Assembly (NCBI GenBank): GCA_038882715.1
Contig: JAVZNR010000002.1
Span: 85,093-149,092 of the forward strand
DNA: 64,000 bases
Reading direction: 5' to 3'
Source of the DNA: Candidatus Bathyarchaeia archaeon
Lineage (GTDB): Archaea; Thermoproteota; Bathyarchaeia; Bathyarchaeales; DTEX01
The first letter of the stretch is position 1, and the number at the start of each line of letters is the position of its first letter. The position numbers and the translations under genes were made by a program. Positions 37,377 to 52,380 of this stretch are shown one piece after another. Below the pieces are notes generated by a model. It ran no database searches and was not told the DNA's origin. It saw only the letters and a list, made by a program, of their open reading frames with translations.

Positions 37377-38171
37377 ATGATTAGGCCCGTAGCATTTAGG
37401 AATAAGGGTCAACAGATAATAGGGGTTCTCCATAAGCCCGACAATATTAAGCCTCATGAGAAGGTTCCGGGAATAGTTATGTTTCATGGCTTTACTGGCA
37501 ATAGAAGCGAGGCCCATAGGCTCTTTGTCCAAATAGCTAGAGGGCTATCCAGCTGCGGTTTCGCTGTTCTACGTTTTGATTTCAGGGGTTCAGGGGACAG
37601 TGATGGAGACTTTGAAGATATGACACTGCCAGAGGAAGTAAGCGATGCTGAGAGAGCCGTAACATTCTTACTTAGGCAGAGGAATGTTGACAGGGAAAGG
37701 ATTGGTGTCATAGGCTTAAGTATGGGTGGTAGGGTTGCGGCAATCCTCGCTTCAAAAGACAAGAGGATTAAGTTCGCAGTTTTATATTCGCCGGCTCTAA
37801 GCCCATTAAAGGAAAGGTTCCTTTCATTAATGAGTAAAGAGGCTTTAGGGAGGCTTGAGTCTGGTGAGCCAATAGAGGTCTCCAGCGGATGGTACCTGAA
37901 AAAAGCATTTTTCGAGACCATTGACTACATAGTCCCCCTAGACATAATGGGCAAAATTAGGGTTCCAGTCTTGATAATACATGGCGATCGAGACGAGGTT
38001 ATACCAGTGGAGGAATCCGTGAAAGCCTATGAGCGGGTCAAGGGCTTAAATGAGAAGAATGAGCTTTACATAGTTAAAGGTGGAGATCACACATTCTCTA
38101 AGAGGGAGCATACTTTAGAGGTTCTAAAGAAGACAATTGAATGGTTAAACTCATTAAATTTAATTCATTAA
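37377..38171 (+). CDS. Alpha/beta hydrolase (acylaminopeptidase/esterase-like)
   Basis: A 264-residue serine hydrolase. VMFHGFTGNRSEAH forms the oxyanion strand, GLSMGGR is the nucleophile elbow with catalytic Ser, VLIIHGDRDEVIP carries the Asp and GGDHTFSKREH the His. This is a full triad in a protein of normal size, soluble, probably an esterase or peptidase. The frame starts at TTG 37362, but ATG 37377 follows GGGTG by six bases and a TATA-like TTTATTAA at 37337-37344 puts the transcript start near 37366, so ATG is chosen. Not in an operon. Confidence 0.82.
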   Translation: MIRPVAFRNKGQQIIGVLHKPDNIKPHEKVPGIVMFHGFTGNRSEAHRLFVQIARGLSSCGFAVLRFDFRGSGDSDGDFEDMTLPEEVSDAERAVTFLLRQRNVDRERIGVIGLSMGGRVAAILASKDKRIKFAVLYSPALSPLKERFLSLMSKEALGRLESGEPIEVSSGWYLKKAFFETIDYIVPLDIMGKIRVPVLIIHGDRDEVIPVEESVKAYERVKGLNEKNELYIVKGGDHTFSKREHTLEVLKKTIEWLNSLNLIH

Positions 38172-38207
38172 ATTTAATTTAATGTAGCTCCAAAAACATT
38201 CTCCAAT

Positions 38208-47550: not shown

Positions 47551-47563
47551 ATAAAAATTAAAT
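47551..47563. repeat. Left 13-bp target-site duplication
   Basis: ATAAAAATTAAAT directly abuts the outer CCCC end of the left terminal inverted repeat. The identical 13 bases follow the right end at 52069-52081. Removing the element and one copy restores a continuous AT-rich sequence in the promoter of the 52117 gene, so this is the host target duplicated on insertion. Confidence 0.9.
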
Positions 47564-47679
47564 CCCCAAACCCAAACCCACATCCCCACCCCCGTATCCC
47601 ACTACCCTCAGTCACAGTCAGTCACAGTCAGTCACACAGTCAGTCAGCCACAAACAAAAACAAAAAAAGAAAAAAGGCT
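47564..47679. repeat. Left terminal inverted repeat (116 bp)
   Basis: Outer to inner it holds a C-rich end (CCCCAAACCCAAACCC and further C-tracts), a GTCA/GTCACA tandem block, and an A-rich end. It matches the right end inverted almost perfectly: one T/C difference in the first 60 bases, one extra 10-base unit (GTCAGTCACA) here, and small A-run differences. The nearest element gene ends four bases inside it. Confidence 0.92.
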
Positions 47680-47682
47680 AAA

Positions 47683-47871
47683 CTAAGCCCTATGCTTAAA
47701 CCATAGGTAAACTGCTAAGGCGACGACAAAGAATGAGATTAGCATAACTGTGAAGAAACGTACTTCAGGGTTAATAGGGTATTGACCAGCCATATAGTTT
47801 ATTGTCAACGGAAATATGAAGAATATTGTAAAGAGCCAAGCTAAAAGAACGATCAGCCTACTCGCTTCCAT
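47683..47871 (-). CDS. Small two-helix membrane protein of the element
   Basis: A 62-residue protein with two hydrophobic helices (about 5-25 and 38-58) joined by a short loop, ending in KHRA. No family is recognised. It is the last gene of the element's left operon, overlapping the primase-like gene by 14 bases and ending four bases from the inverted repeat. A role in membrane attachment, exclusion or a toxin-like effect is possible but unproven. Confidence 0.55.
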   Translation of the reverse strand: MEASRLIVLLAWLFTIFFIFPLTINYMAGQYPINPEVRFFTVMLISFFVVALAVYLWFKHRA

Positions 47872-48307
47872 TCCCGTAAACCCCTAGCTTATCAATCAAA
47901 CTCAGAATCTTCTCCCTAGCGTTAAAGTAAACCCGTATGCCTAAATCCTGCCTTCCAACCCTACAAACAACCATAGGAATATGCCTAAAACCTTCTTTAG
48001 TGGGCTTTGGGCTAAGCCTAAGTGTTTCAGCCTCTTTAATCAACTGCATGCAAACCCACTTATACACATTAGGGTTACCGCTCATTATAGCTATCCAAGC
48101 CATAATCTTGTAAACCTTACTCCAATATCTGAAAGGCCTATTAAAAACAACATGATAGTTTCCTTGACTGCTCTCAAGAATAACATAACCGCCCAACTTA
48201 AACCGCTTAAGCACTAAATCAGCTAACTCCTTAACCTTCTCCAACGGCATGCCATCCAAATCAACCATAACAATATTCCTAAGCGTTAAGCCCACTATAG
48301 GGGGCAT
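47858..48307 (-). CDS. Candidate minimal archaeo-eukaryotic primase-like protein
   Basis: A 149-residue protein. IVMVDLDG (Asp16, Asp18) fits the hhhDhD metal motif of archaeo-eukaryotic primases, and ESSQGNYHVVF (Ser46-His52) fits the sxH nucleotide motif with its strand; ETLRLSPKP near 95 may be the basic third region. Order and spacing match the AEP catalytic core, though it is about half the usual length and lacks a zinc or helicase domain. It could make primers for element replication in the absence of a PolB. An alternative is an unrelated small RNA-recognition-motif-fold replication initiator. It starts four bases after the upstream gene's stop. Confidence 0.5.
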   Translation of the reverse strand: MPPIVGLTLRNIVMVDLDGMPLEKVKELADLVLKRFKLGGYVILESSQGNYHVVFNRPFRYWSKVYKIMAWIAIMSGNPNVYKWVCMQLIKEAETLRLSPKPTKEGFRHIPMVVCRVGRQDLGIRVYFNAREKILSLIDKLGVYGNGSE

Positions 48308-48310
48308 AGG

Positions 48311-48769
48311 CTAGCTAATCACCTCTGGCCGATAATCCCACTCCATCCAATAATCAAGATACCTACGGGCTTCCTTAGCATGGCACTCAACAAAACGCTT
48401 CTTAGGAGGATGGATAACAGCATCCTGCATAGCCCTATACAACTGCCTACCCGTTCCATACATCTCTAAACGCCTACTCTCCCCTCCAACCGTTCCATAA
48501 AGAGCTATACGCTTACCCGCCTCAACCCACCTAACCCTAGCCCGCCTAACAGTAACCACCATAGGCGCTTTCTCACTCTCCCTAACCCTCTTTAAAAGAT
48601 CTTTTCTCCTCATCCCAAGCCCCTCTCTCTGCAATTCTCTCTGAATCAAGTTAGCTGAATAGCCTCGATGAACATAATCCCTAATAAGTCTTTCACGCCT
48701 CTTAACTTCAGCCTCACTAAGCCTTTTCCCCGCCAACTTCCTAGCCTCCGTAAGCTTGTTTACTGTCAT
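48311..48769 (-). CDS. Basic DNA-binding-like protein of the element
   Basis: A 152-residue, strongly basic protein without recognised family. Residues about 20-60 (VKRRERLIRDYVHRGYSANLIQRELQREG) look like a helix-turn-helix, followed by a beta-rich stretch (VVTVRRARVRWVEAGKRIALYGTVGG) and a C-terminal part with single Cys and aromatic residues. It overlaps the zinc-finger gene before it by 29 bases and is followed by the primase-like gene, so it may assist replication or transposition. Confidence 0.5.
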   Translation of the reverse strand: MTVNKLTEARKLAGKRLSEAEVKRRERLIRDYVHRGYSANLIQRELQREGLGMRRKDLLKRVRESEKAPMVVTVRRARVRWVEAGKRIALYGTVGGESRRLEMYGTGRQLYRAMQDAVIHPPKKRFVECHAKEARRYLDYWMEWDYRPEVIS

Positions 48770-49052
48770 CCATCATCTTCTTAGCCGTTAAGCGTGTTAA
48801 ACCTCCACGCATGAGAATAAGTAAAATCTGTTCGTCAGGTATGCCTTGAAGCCTAGCCTTATGGATTGCTTCAAGCTTCGCTTTTCTCCAAGAAAGCCCC
48901 CTCATGTAAGTAGGATCTAAAAGGTCGTTCTCTAAACTTTTGTCTAAAGGAACTTTAGGGTTATCTGATTTATAGGTTTTCATGCACTCTTCACTACAGA
49001 AGTCTAGGCCTTCTGGAATAGGTTTACCGCAAACCCTACAGTTCTTAGCCAC
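48741..49052 (-). CDS. Zinc-finger protein of the element, longer
   Basis: A 103-residue protein starting with a four-cysteine zinc ribbon, CRVCGKPIPEGLDFCSEEC, and continuing with a charged helical region (SWRKAKLEAIHKARLQGIPDEQILLILMRGG). GTG 49052 is selected: GGAGG of the preceding gene's end lies nine bases upstream, whereas TTG 49061 would touch it. It shares the CxxC...FCSxEC type finger with the 49045 protein, suggesting tandem duplication of that module. Its 3' end overlaps the next gene. Confidence 0.55.
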   Translation of the reverse strand: MAKNCRVCGKPIPEGLDFCSEECMKTYKSDNPKVPLDKSLENDLLDPTYMRGLSWRKAKLEAIHKARLQGIPDEQILLILMRGGLTRLTAKKMMDDSKQAYGG

Positions 49053-49209
49053 TCTTCTCAACCTCCATAACTTTCTTGAGAAACTGCATTTTGTTTTCTA
49101 ATGCTAGTTTCCGCTTGTATTCAAAGAAGCATTCTAGGCTACAGAATTTTCGTGGTCTATCGCTTATGAATTCTTTACCGCATTTTAAACATACGCATGT
49201 ATATGGCAT
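49045..49209 (-). CDS. Small zinc-finger protein of the element
   Basis: A 54-residue protein: CVCLKCGKEF, then RKFCSLECFFEY, a four-Cys treble-clef/zinc-ribbon like finger, then a basic helix ending VEKSG. A near-consensus ribosome site GGAGGTGATT lies seven bases before ATG 49209. It opens the five-gene left operon and overlaps the next start by eight bases. Likely a DNA- or protein-binding accessory; the function is unknown. Confidence 0.6.
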   Translation of the reverse strand: MPYTCVCLKCGKEFISDRPRKFCSLECFFEYKRKLALENKMQFLKKVMEVEKSG

Positions 49210-49274
49210 TTTTCAATCACCTCCTTTTCTACAAAAGATTTATATGGAGTGAATTTGGATATAGTTTTTGGATG

Positions 49275-49295
49275 GCTATATTGCCATATTATAGC
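49275..49295. promoter_or_regulatory. GCTATA-N9-TATAGC dyad in divergent element promoter
   Basis: Inverted arms GCTATA (49275-49280) and TATAGC (49290-49295) lie between the left operon (start 49209, minus) and the winged-helix gene (start 49320, plus). The arms resemble TATA elements, and a nested ATTGC...GCAAT pair overlaps. The position allows joint control of both directions, possibly by the winged-helix protein itself. Confidence 0.35.
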
Positions 49296-49319
49296 AATTA
49301 AATATAAGGGAAAAGCTAT

Positions 49320-49961
49320 ATGAAAGCCAAACATGAGGGAATGAAAGACAAGCGTGAGGGAAAAGAGAAAAAGGCTACAACGAAAATCAAGATAGGCATA
49401 TTTCAAGGAAAACAAGCCAAATACAATAGGTTTCTTCTCGAAACATTGTATGATGAGGGTCCATTATCAGCTTGGGAATTAGCTAAAAAGGCAAGAGAAA
49501 ACCAAAACCTACATAGCCTTCATGCCATTTTCAATAAAAGGTTGAGGATTCTGGAAAAGAAGGGATATGTGAAGAGGGTTGAAGGAAAATGGCTTTTACA
49601 GTTTAAAGGCATGATCGCCGTTCTAATAATTCAAGAAAACCCTAAGCCTTTTAATGAAATTTGGGTTCAACTGGTTGAAAACCTCTTAGGGATAGATGAA
49701 AAAGACTTGGCGTTTTTAAGAAGCCGTAGAAGAATCGAAAAATATCTTAAATTTATAAGGGCAAAACTTGAGGATTTGAAAAAGTATGAAAACTGGGTTT
49801 TATTATCTGATTATGTTAAAAAGATGATGGAGAAAGGCTTTTTCAACCTTGATGTTATTGAAAATGAAATTTTAGCGATGCTAATAATTGGAAAAATTTT
49901 ACATGAACAAGAATATGCAGAAAAAGATTTAGAGAATCTAATTAAAGAACTACTATTCTAG
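49320..49961 (+). CDS. Winged-helix protein of the element
   Basis: A 213-residue basic protein. After about 35 charged residues, KYNRFLLETLYDEGPLSAWELAKKARE, HAIFNKRLRILEKKGYVKRVEGKW form a MarR/PadR-like winged helix (about 38-95). The rest is helical and Lys/Glu-rich. It could repress the element or bind its ends with Cas1. Its stop lies inside the 3' end of cas1 (20-base convergent overlap), linking the two genes physically. The ATG has a weak AAGGGA ribosome site. Confidence 0.6.
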   Translation: MKAKHEGMKDKREGKEKKATTKIKIGIFQGKQAKYNRFLLETLYDEGPLSAWELAKKARENQNLHSLHAIFNKRLRILEKKGYVKRVEGKWLLQFKGMIAVLIIQENPKPFNEIWVQLVENLLGIDEKDLAFLRSRRRIEKYLKFIRAKLEDLKKYENWVLLSDYVKKMMEKGFFNLDVIENEILAMLIIGKILHEQEYAEKDLENLIKELLF

Positions 49962-50967
49962 GCTTCCAACTGCTTGTTTCGTTTCTTAGGTGTTTGGCTA
50001 GAAGGTAGGCTTCCTCATTCATTAGGGTTTCAATTGTCTGCTTGTTTCCATGCTTTATTCTTGGAATGTTCACTTTTGTCTGAAATAGCCTATTTAAGCC
50101 CTTAACGAATTCCCTTGTTTTCTCCCTGCTTAAAACCTCTCTTTTGCCTATCCTATTTGTGCTATATCGCTCTGTTTTAACTGTGAAGTCTTTTTGCTTT
50201 AGTGTTTGGCTGAACTCTATAATGTAGTCGTCTACTAGGTAGCGGTATAGCTCCATTAAATCACAAACCAAGCTAGGCTTACCCAACTGTTCACTATGCA
50301 AAAAGCCTAGGTAAGGCTCTAGATGAGCGTTTAGGATGGCTGAGTAAACCCTAAACTTTAGAAGGGTATAGGCTAGGTTAAAGGTATTGTTCACGCCGTC
50401 GTAGGCTTTCCAACCCTTACGCTCCTCAACCCTGAAAGGCAATAGGCTGAATATTTGCTTGAAATAGTGTTTTGAGGCTTTCCCCTCAATCTGATTAAGC
50501 CTATATCTGGCTTCTCTCAGGCTTTTAGCCTCTATAGCCTTTATCCGCTCCTTAACTTCCTCTAGGCTTATCTCCTTTAAGCCATGCTTTCTCAGAACCA
50601 TGTTTTGCCCCTCTATTTTGCTTAGAACTATTGTTTTGGCTATTTCTACGCCTTTACCCTTCTCATGGGCTTGATACTGTGCTATCCTAGTTTTAACATG
50701 GCTATCGTCATCTAGGCTTCTAAGAATGGCTACGGGCTTACCGTTTCGTGTCTTAATGATGATTGGAATATTCCAGAATCCACAGCACGCTAAGACTGAA
50801 GTGCTTATGAAGTTTCCGCTTGAAATGGTTATTTCGCCTATCTCGTTTTCAAAGAGTGGGATGCGCTCAACCCTACCATGCTTATCTTTAATGATGAAAC
50901 AGCCTTTTTCCATGCCTAGGTAAAAGCCGTTTCCCTCAATCGCTATGTTCAAAACCTTAGCCTTCAA
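49942..50967 (-). CDS. cas1: Cas1 integrase (casposase-like)
   Basis: A 341-residue Cas1 with the two-domain fold: N-terminal beta domain (about 1-90) and helical catalytic domain. Expected metal-site residues are all present: Glu161 in IEGKASKHYF, His224 in YLGFLHSEQ, Asp236 and Glu239 in SLVCDLMELYR. VNNTFNLAYTLLKFRV and the C-terminal EEAYLLAKHLRNE also match. No Cas2, Cas4, effector or CRISPR array is nearby, and it sits in a bounded mobile element, so it probably integrates the element as in casposons. It lacks the C-terminal helix-turn-helix extension reported for casposases. TTG 50967 starts it after GGGGGATAAG; the promoter carries TTCCACAAT repeats. Confidence 0.93.
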   Translation of the reverse strand: MKAKVLNIAIEGNGFYLGMEKGCFIIKDKHGRVERIPLFENEIGEITISSGNFISTSVLACCGFWNIPIIIKTRNGKPVAILRSLDDDSHVKTRIAQYQAHEKGKGVEIAKTIVLSKIEGQNMVLRKHGLKEISLEEVKERIKAIEAKSLREARYRLNQIEGKASKHYFKQIFSLLPFRVEERKGWKAYDGVNNTFNLAYTLLKFRVYSAILNAHLEPYLGFLHSEQLGKPSLVCDLMELYRYLVDDYIIEFSQTLKQKDFTVKTERYSTNRIGKREVLSREKTREFVKGLNRLFQTKVNIPRIKHGNKQTIETLMNEEAYLLAKHLRNETSSWKPRIVVL

Positions 50968-50981
50968 GACTTATCCCCCAT

Positions 50982-51078
50982 TTCCACAATTCCACAATTA
51001 CCCTTTAGGGGATAAGTTGCCTATAAGCCTTTCGCTATTGTGGATTAGCGGAAAAAAGTTTATAAGCAATTCCACAAA
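50982..51078. promoter_or_regulatory. Four TTCCACAAT motifs in the cas1/RHH divergent promoter
   Basis: TTCCACAAT occurs at 50982-50990 and 50990-50998 (tandem), inverted as ATTGTGGA at 51037-51044 and as TTCCACAAA at 51070-51078. Minus-strand TATA (CTTATAG, near 51022-51028) places the cas1 start among the tandem copies; plus-strand TTTATAAG (about 51059-51066) places the RHH start just past the last copy. The pattern fits binding by RHH dimers, probably the 51102 product, repressing both genes. Confidence 0.6.
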
Positions 51079-51101
51079 ATAATAATCCTAAAGGTGAAAA
51101 C

Positions 51102-51254
51102 ATGAGCATGGAAAAGAAAATAAAATTCAGCGTCCTAATTCCAGAGCCAATATGGGAGAAACTCAGCATACTAGCAATCAAAAAACGCATGAGCAAAAAC
51201 CAACTAATCCTCCAACTCATCCAAGAAGCCCTAGAAAAAGAACGCCTTAGCTAG
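51102..51254 (+). CDS. Ribbon-helix-helix (CopG-like) regulator
   Basis: A 50-residue protein: the strand KKIKFSVLIPEPIWEKLS followed by two helices (SILAIKKRM and NQLILQLIQEALEKE), the minimal RHH/CopG layout in which a dimer inserts the strands into the DNA major groove. ATG 51102 follows AAAGGTGAAA. It is divergent from cas1 and lies next to four copies of a 9-base motif, which makes it the likely repressor of itself and of cas1. The membrane-coiled-coil gene follows 30 bases later. Confidence 0.7.
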   Translation: MSMEKKIKFSVLIPEPIWEKLSILAIKKRMSKNQLILQLIQEALEKERLS

Positions 51255-51283
51255 TTTTCTTGAGAAGTAGATGGGGGATTATT

Positions 51284-51955
51284 ATGAATGTGAAATGGGT
51301 TGTTTTAGTCCTAATTGCCTTATTAGCTGGTTTCGGAGGTGGTTTCATTTCTAGTTACTTAGTCTTTCAGCAGCAGATTGCCAACCTAAGAATGGAGATA
51401 AAAGAACTGCAGGAGCAGTTATCTGATTTAGGAACTATTTACTCAAATATCAGCACGCTTATAGGAGCACAAAATGAACTTATTAGTGGGCTACAAGAGC
51501 AAGTAGCTAATTTAGAGACTCTTAGTTCAAACATTAGTGCTTTACCGGAAATTCGAAATGAGCTCAATAAGCTGGAATCCATTCTACTGAACATTGTTTC
51601 GCTGCTTCAGCAGCTACTAAGCAAGGAGTATGCAAAAATCGAAAAACTGGAATTTCTTGTAGCATACGCAGAAAAAGCGATTTCTGAATTTAGTGTCGTA
51701 TTAAAAATAAAGAATACGGGGTCGTCTGATGCAATGATACAGATGATATTACTTAATGGAAGGTTGGATGGAAGCGCCAGAGTGAATGGCACTTCTCTTT
51801 CAAGTACATATTTAGGCATACCTGTGAAGGTCGGGCAGATCACATCACTAATCATAACTCTTCCAGCAGGCACTTACACGTCGGGGCAAACTATCGAAAT
51901 AATGGTTCAGACAACAGTCGGCAATCAATACCCCAAAACTATAGTCTTACCATAA
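51284..51955 (+). CDS. Anchored coiled-coil protein with beta-sandwich domain
   Basis: A 223-residue protein: one N-terminal membrane helix (about 4-28, GGGFISSYLVF), a long coiled coil (about 32-110, with LQEQLSDLG, LISGLQEQVANLE heptads), and a C-terminal beta-rich domain (about 120-223, VVLKIKNTGSSDAMIQ, LPAGTYTSGQTIEIMVQ) that resembles archaeal cell-surface adhesion or pilin-like domains. It is predicted to face outside. ATG 51284 follows GGGGGATT. It is the cargo at the right end of the element, ending nine bases from the repeat. The role is unknown. Confidence 0.55.
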   Translation: MNVKWVVLVLIALLAGFGGGFISSYLVFQQQIANLRMEIKELQEQLSDLGTIYSNISTLIGAQNELISGLQEQVANLETLSSNISALPEIRNELNKLESILLNIVSLLQQLLSKEYAKIEKLEFLVAYAEKAISEFSVVLKIKNTGSSDAMIQMILLNGRLDGSARVNGTSLSSTYLGIPVKVGQITSLIITLPAGTYTSGQTIEIMVQTTVGNQYPKTIVLP

Positions 51956-51963
51956 TCATTACC

Positions 51964-52068
51964 AGCCCTTTTCTTTTTCTTTTTTTGTTTGTGGCTGACT
52001 GACTGTGTGACTGACTGTGACTGAGGGTGGTGGGATACGGGGGTGGGGATGTGGGTTTGGGTTTGGGG
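51964..52068. repeat. Right terminal inverted repeat (105 bp)
   Basis: The inverted partner of 47564-47679. It ends in GGGTTTGGGTTTGGGG on the plus strand next to the right target duplication. The inner block has one fewer 10-base GTCA-type unit than the left copy. The G-tracts at 52040-52068 could fold as a G-quadruplex. Confidence 0.92.
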
Positions 52069-52081
52069 ATAAAAATTAAAT
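52069..52081. repeat. Right 13-bp target-site duplication
   Basis: ATAAAAATTAAAT immediately after the right inverted repeat is identical to 47551-47563. Here the sequence also contributes the AT-rich TATA-like element (TTAAATATTT) of the 52117 gene, so insertion did not remove that promoter. Confidence 0.9.
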
Positions 52082-52116
52082 ATTTGCCTAAGAAAGATAT
52101 CTACTCAAGATGAGAG

Positions 52117-52380
52117 ATGGCTAGAAAGTCTAAGAAGGAAACGCAAAGGATGCTTAAGGCTGTCGTCGTCCTCTTACGCAACACAACTTGGAAGTGCGGT
52201 AGGGTTGAGCGCCTCATCGTTGAGTACCTACAAAGCCACTTGATCAAATATGGTACTCCACGCTCATCAGTAAAAGAGATAACCCAATATTTCACTGTGA
52301 ATGGGAAGTCAAAAAACGAGCTCTTTGATGCGCTTAAAAGGCTAGAGAGAAGGCGGATAATAGAGATCAGAGAGATCTAA
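52117..52380 (+). CDS. Small winged-helix-like protein next to the insertion site
   Basis: An 87-residue, Lys/Arg-rich protein; VERLIVEYLQSHLIKYG, SVKEITQYFTVNGKSKNELFDALKRLERRRIIEI resembles a winged helix. TTAAATATTT (about 52076-52085) would be its TATA element, with transcription starting only about ten bases before ATG 52117. It lies outside the element's repeat and target duplication and is therefore host-encoded; its promoter is the casposon target. The family is not recognised. Confidence 0.5.
   Translation: MARKSKKETQRMLKAVVVLLRNTTWKCGRVERLIVEYLQSHLIKYGTPRSSVKEITQYFTVNGKSKNELFDALKRLERRRIIEIREI

Follow-up and report, generated by a model that had tools for sequence, protein, structure and literature searches.

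A putative autoregulatory operator array between cas1 and a ribbon-helix-helix gene in a small archaeal Cas1 element

What restrains a Cas1 integrase whose gene travels on a mobile element? The CRISPR adaptation machinery is presumed to stem from casposons, and very little is known of how their integrase is restrained; the sole case of control found in the literature searched is CARF activation in M. mazei (PMC7465815). The question is raised by a site in the 64,000-nucleotide stretch of DNA analysed here (the window), where cas1 and the gene of a 50-residue protein diverge from a gap of 134 bp (50968–51101) that contains a cluster of short repeats. The original prediction took these repeats for operators through which the small protein, assigned to the ribbon-helix-helix (RHH) class, limits integrase production. 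In our analysis the probability is roughly 0.6 that 50982–51078 is an operator array at which an RHH protein would regulate its own gene and repress cas1 in a Cas1-driven transposon. The features discussed below are listed in Table 1.

Table 1. Coordinates of the element, its genes and the sites in the cas1–RHH gap (positions in the window)
Feature	Position	Strand	Remarks
Left target-site duplication	47551–47563		ATAAAAATTAAAT; 13-bp exact match to 52069–52081
Whole mobile element, 4505 bp	47564–52068		Bounded by terminal inverted repeats (TIRs) and target-site duplication
Left TIR	47564–47673	+	CCCCAAACCCAAACCC... plus CACAGTCAGTCA tandem repeats
Small ORF, 62 aa	47683–47871	-	Hydrophobic segments; no Pfam match over cut-off
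Archaeo-eukaryotic-primase-like protein, 149 aa	47858–48307	-	Homologues in relatives
Conserved family protein, 152 aa	48311–48769	-	Homologues in L037, L063, L064
Treble-clef zinc-finger protein (DUF2116), 106 aa	48741–49061	-	Pfam 6e-8
Cys-rich ORF, 54 aa	49045–49209	-	
Winged-helix-like protein (wHTH213), 213 aa	49320–49961	+	Alternative regulator; Pfam MarR E = 0.0038, below cut-off
cas1 integrase, 341 aa	49942–50967	-	Pfam Cas_Cas1 7e-51, TIGR00287 2.4e-54
Left arm, 10-bp perfect inverted repeat	50969–50978		ACTTATCCCC; overlaps cas1 SD-like GGGGGAT (minus strand)
Site 1	50982–50990	+	TTCCACAAT, exact
Site 2	50990–50998	+	TTCCACAAT, exact; tandem with site 1, one base in common, period 8
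Right arm, 10-bp perfect inverted repeat	51008–51017		GGGGATAAGT
Putative proximal TATA-like element of cas1	51021–51028	-	CTTATAGG
Site 3	51037–51045	-	Inverted copy ATCCACAAT, one mismatch
Putative TATA of RHH promoter	51058–51066	+	TTTATAAG; begins 43 bp before RHH ATG
Site 4	51070–51078	+	TTCCACAAA, one mismatch; TTCCACAA exact; follows the putative RHH TATA and precedes the start codon
RHH protein, 50 aa, candidate repressor	51102–51254	+	ATG at 51102; SD-like AGGTGA just upstream
Membrane-anchored coiled-coil protein (cc223), 223 aa	51284–51955	+	Probable cargo sharing a transcription unit with RHH
Right TIR	51969–52068	-	blastn
Right target-site duplication	52069–52081		Overlaps TATA-like region of host gene p87

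The repeat cluster and the promoters it may cover

The exact tandem pair and the fourth copy with its single mismatch were found as had been described; the inverted copy also carries one mismatch, which the original prediction had understated. Counted by the 8-mer TTCCACAA, the gap contains three perfect copies and one copy with one mismatch. The motif-cluster score of the gap was reached in none of 2,000 dinucleotide shuffles of 50968–51101, and the motif alone, with up to one mismatch, gave four sites against a shuffle mean of 0.05 (maximum, 2). When 946 real 134-bp segments of the window were scored, four scored as high as the gap; two of these overlap the tandem-repeat TIR of the element and the other two overlap a two-copy 14-bp tandem repeat, TCATTAAATTTAAT, at 38151–38179. 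Of the 21 copies of TTCCACAAT in the 1.64-Mb genome, sites 1 and 2 are the sole adjacent pair. The repeat cluster is real and non-random.

The tandem pair is located 15–31 bp ahead of the cas1 start codon, and sites 3 and 4 point towards each other from either side of the putative RHH TATA, which is preceded by an A-rich BRE-like sequence, CGGAAAAAA. On the other strand, 51058–51066 is also a possible distal TATA of cas1. Judging from the TATA-like and SD-like sequences, the sites would overlap both promoters. A check of TATA spacing over the window genes, which were few and gave a noisy result, showed no clear peak, so the positions of the cas1 and RHH promoters are unsure.

The start codon of cas1 is a TTG at 50967, and a TAA lies in the same frame two codons before it. 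We also noticed a feature missed in the original prediction, a perfect 10-bp inverted repeat that encloses sites 1 and 2; perfect arms of 10 bp were reached in 33 of 2,000 shuffles. The predicted fold of the cas1 leader was -26.1 kcal/mol (z = -2.5), and one of 200 shuffles was as good. Given a transcription start sufficiently far upstream, the predicted hairpin can hide the ribosome-binding site of cas1, and the UUG start codon and the hairpin may add to a low output of Cas1.

RHH (MetJ/Arc/CopG) repressors are formed by a beta-strand and two helices in about 45 residues. That the small divergent protein belongs to this class is favoured by several RHH models of Pfam that agree on the same residues, and is made less firm by their scores, all of which fall below the curated cut-offs (Arc, E = 0.0023; HicB, 0.0046; RHH_1, 0.025). 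The sole matches of the protein in the PDB were MatP, Mnt and Arc, which were weak (phmmer). An operator of the RHH type has at least two short tandem or inverted sites over a promoter; four sites were found here, with a putative promoter overlap. The C-terminal domain of the neighbouring cc223 is widespread among genomes of the class, and the host genome itself has a second copy (G000:C10:39185–39556, 64% identity). This domain is a host family, and cc223 was therefore taken as cargo; the idea of RHH–cc223 as a conserved module was rejected on the same ground.

The Cas1 element and its relatives

The assignment of cas1 proved correct: the gene is that of a genuine integrase, is apparently intact and sits in an element with TIRs. 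The protein is full length, its catalytic residues (E161, H224, D236 and E239) are invariant in the family alignment, and it is the only Cas1 in the host genome. In a profile search the M. mazei casposase 6OPM was the second-best match (E = 4.6e-27). The Cas1 models cover residues 8–331 of 341, leaving no C-terminal HTH, which is a feature of casposon family 2. A Cas2-like gene, which a CRISPR-Cas adaptation module has together with Cas1 and an array, was not found in the element.

The TIRs are about 110 bp long, and the left one matches 52070–51969 at 88% over 112 bp (blastn). The flanking genes, adk and p87, are neighbours with no insertion between them in each of the ten further genomes of the genus; p87 (52117–52380) therefore belongs to the host, and the insertion is genuine. 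It falls at a conserved TATA-like sequence upstream of p87 (52069–52116).

Related Cas1 proteins with 46–71% identity were found in genomes of the host's class, and among 398 genomes drawn from the phylum strong matches were confined to this class. The 15 Cas1 proteins of the family group together, apart from 16 others of the class, in a clade supported at 100/100. Ends could be recognised in at least eight relatives, most of them tipped with C-rich simple repeats (CCCAAACCC, CCCAACCC, CCTT and TCC), and seven of these relatives have exact, AT-rich duplications of 13–15 bp; the relatives with bounded ends are 3.4–7.7 kb long. Many fragments of cas1 genes of this family were also seen in the class, which suggests frequent decay. 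The insertion in the window and several other sites of the family lie 30–60 bp before start codons. Strict targeting of promoters was rejected for the family: L061, L065 and L069 sit between gene ends, and therefore only a preference for AT-rich intergenic DNA is claimed.

The primase-like gene and cas1 are the most widely shared genes of the family. Four of eight members of the primase-like family match the AEP-like model PF24387 (best E = 2.6e-4), and their DxD motif is invariant; a PDB search with the family gave no matches. L038, L039, L061 and L069 have in common an AAA-like ATPase ORF (MLLIAKPESGKT...), placed between the gene of the regulator and that of the primase-like protein; this ORF is absent from the window element. 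As regards PolB, no ORF of the element is large enough or matches, and none was seen among the ORFs listed for those relatives that were examined, the set without PolB being 47564–52068, L034, L036, L037, L039, L061, L063, L065, L068 and L069. Casposons have been described with PolB, and the element is therefore casposon-like and lacks a defining feature. No description of Cas1 elements without PolB was met in the literature searched, which covered few subscription journals.

A scan of viral contigs with the window Cas1 protein alone gave no match, and a scan with the alignment yielded two contigs (L092 and L093) with a Cas1 of the clade at 50% identity. In the stretch of L092 that was examined there was neither a TIR nor an RHH gene next to cas1; this cas1 lies among genes resembling structural genes of tailed viruses.

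A DNA search with 50940–51130 across 257 genomes of the class gave short, chance-like matches only, and a homologous operator region was found in none of the 256 genomes other than that of the host. Among congeners, homologues of the RHH protein were limited to two degraded copies, one with an unrelated upstream sequence (G002) and one truncated (G003); weak matches were also found in G222 and G036. Decayed remnants of the element were seen elsewhere in two congeners (L079:4099–4838 and L078:3900–5635); the remnant in G003 keeps the RHH gene, cc223 and the right end, and that in G002 keeps the RHH gene and the right TIR tip. The nearest relative, L002 (Cas1 identity 71%), has no RHH gene; a wHTH gene stands upstream of its cas1, which follows. 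An RHH gene divergent from cas1 or its operon was found with Pfam in two relatives, L064, where the match to TacA1 exceeded the cut-off, and L069, where it was weak; the gene in this position in L039 is RHH by eye only, and in L034 a MazE/AbrB protein gene is divergent from cas1 or its operon. This recurring layout of a divergent gene for a DNA-binding protein suggests that the regulator was swapped while the position of control was kept. The recurrence of RHH genes near cas1 lends modest to moderate support, because mobile elements often carry genes of this kind. The same RHH protein with the same sites was found in no relative, and no comparable repeat cluster was found when the gaps upstream of cas1 were compared in 13 relatives, including L039, L064, L069, L034 and L065; inverted pairs were present in the gaps of L037 and L064 (in L064, one inverted 9-bp pair).

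With some hesitation, and at slightly less than even confidence, we propose that these elements constitute an undescribed family of small Cas1 transposons without PolB, seen here in one archaeal class only, with a primase-like gene, TIRs tipped by C-rich repeats and AT-rich targets of 13–15 bp that often overlap a promoter TATA. Their integrase would be silenced by interchangeable, element-encoded RHH, MazE/AbrB or wHTH regulators in a lysogeny-like switch. This polymerase-free family of Cas1 transposons is a more unusual part of the findings than the operator.

How cas1 might be repressed

Since the sites lie over putative promoter elements of both genes, an autoregulating RHH repressor of cas1 is the best explanation of the cluster. 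The 50-residue protein would bind the TTCCACAA sites as cooperative dimers. If the proximal TATA serves as the cas1 promoter, transcription would begin at the tandem pair, and sites 3 and 4 would flank the TATA/BRE of the RHH gene. Bound RHH protein would bar the entry of a transcription factor or RNA polymerase at both promoters, so that it would limit itself and the gene downstream of it, and Cas1 would stay low. Binding, repression, the positions of the promoters and the effect on transposition are what we infer from the arrangement.

The main rival, which we consider unlikely, is that the sites are operators of the winged-helix protein wHTH213 and that the RHH protein controls something else. 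A wHTH or HTH gene stands directly upstream of cas1 and in the same direction in L002, L038, L039, L063 and L064, and therefore wHTH control may be the rule in the family; in the window element the wHTH213 gene is convergent with cas1 and overlaps its 3' end. However, wHTH213 has no homologue detected in the relatives, and TTCCACAA is absent from its own upstream gap (49210–49319). Asymmetric tandem sites of 8 bp are, moreover, more characteristic of RHH proteins than of winged-helix dimers. Somewhat less probable still is a restraint of Cas1 mainly at the level of RNA, in which the ACTTATCCCC/GGGGATAAGT hairpin of the leader would hide the SD by the UUG and the TTCCACAA tandem would be no more than its loop. 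The perfect 10-bp arms and the z-score of the leader fold speak for such a brake, but these statistics are moderate and were obtained after the region had been picked out. The brake also requires a transcript that starts upstream of 51017, whereas the proximal TATA would leave the 5' arm untranscribed, and it leaves both site 3 and site 4 unexplained.

In plasmid copy control and partition, too, RHH proteins occur together with short tandem repeats. The repeats could accordingly be iterons or a partition-like site of an excised element, with a CopG- or ParG-like RHH protein, a role with which the primase-like gene would agree; we regard this as improbable, as there is no ParA-type ATPase among the ORFs of the element and the repeats, 2.7 kb away from the primase-like gene, are placed precisely where two promoters diverge. 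That the cluster arose by chance, or is a decaying tandem repeat without function, would fit the fact that no conservation could be demonstrated. The shuffles, none of which scored as high, make this the least credible of the readings, and four separated copies, one of them inverted, are not what simple slippage yields.

Comparison with known systems

If the RHH reading is true, a repressor and its operator in a 4.5-kb Cas1 element would make a small, testable control circuit; the polymerase-free family, if real, would mean that PolB is dispensable for the life style of a Cas1 transposon. With casposon families 1–3 (PMC4046053) the element shares Cas1, long TIRs, a target-site duplication (here of 13 bp) and HTH, RHH or zinc-finger genes, and with family 1 a compact Cas1 without a C-terminal HTH. 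Casposons carry PolB (PMC4046053), whereas the window element has a primase-like gene instead; further differences are the length of its relatives with bounded ends (3.4–7.7 kb) and its insertion into AT-rich intergenic DNA next to a TATA-like region of the host.

In M. mazei, the cas1-solo of a casposon is activated by the host CARF protein MM_0565 (PMC7465815). Both cases concern transcriptional control at the cas1 promoter of a casposon or a casposon-like element, but there a host protein activates, while here an element-encoded RHH protein is proposed to repress. SvtR of SIRV1, a 6.6-kDa RHH dimer that acts as a repressor at its own promoter, is believed to form polymers along DNA (PMC5569661); its sites are imperfect inverted repeats, and SIRV1 is a rod-shaped virus. 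Closest among the known systems is F55 of SSV1, an RHH dimer that binds tandem repeats at the TSS and BRE of its own gene and of neighbouring genes and represses their promoters (PMC5569661). The site of F55 is ATAGATAG, and SSV1 is a virus with another integrase; binding, established for F55, is in our case a deduction. What the two would have in common is a small RHH protein of an archaeal mobile element, tandem sites of period 8 over the start region and, by analogy, autoregulation.
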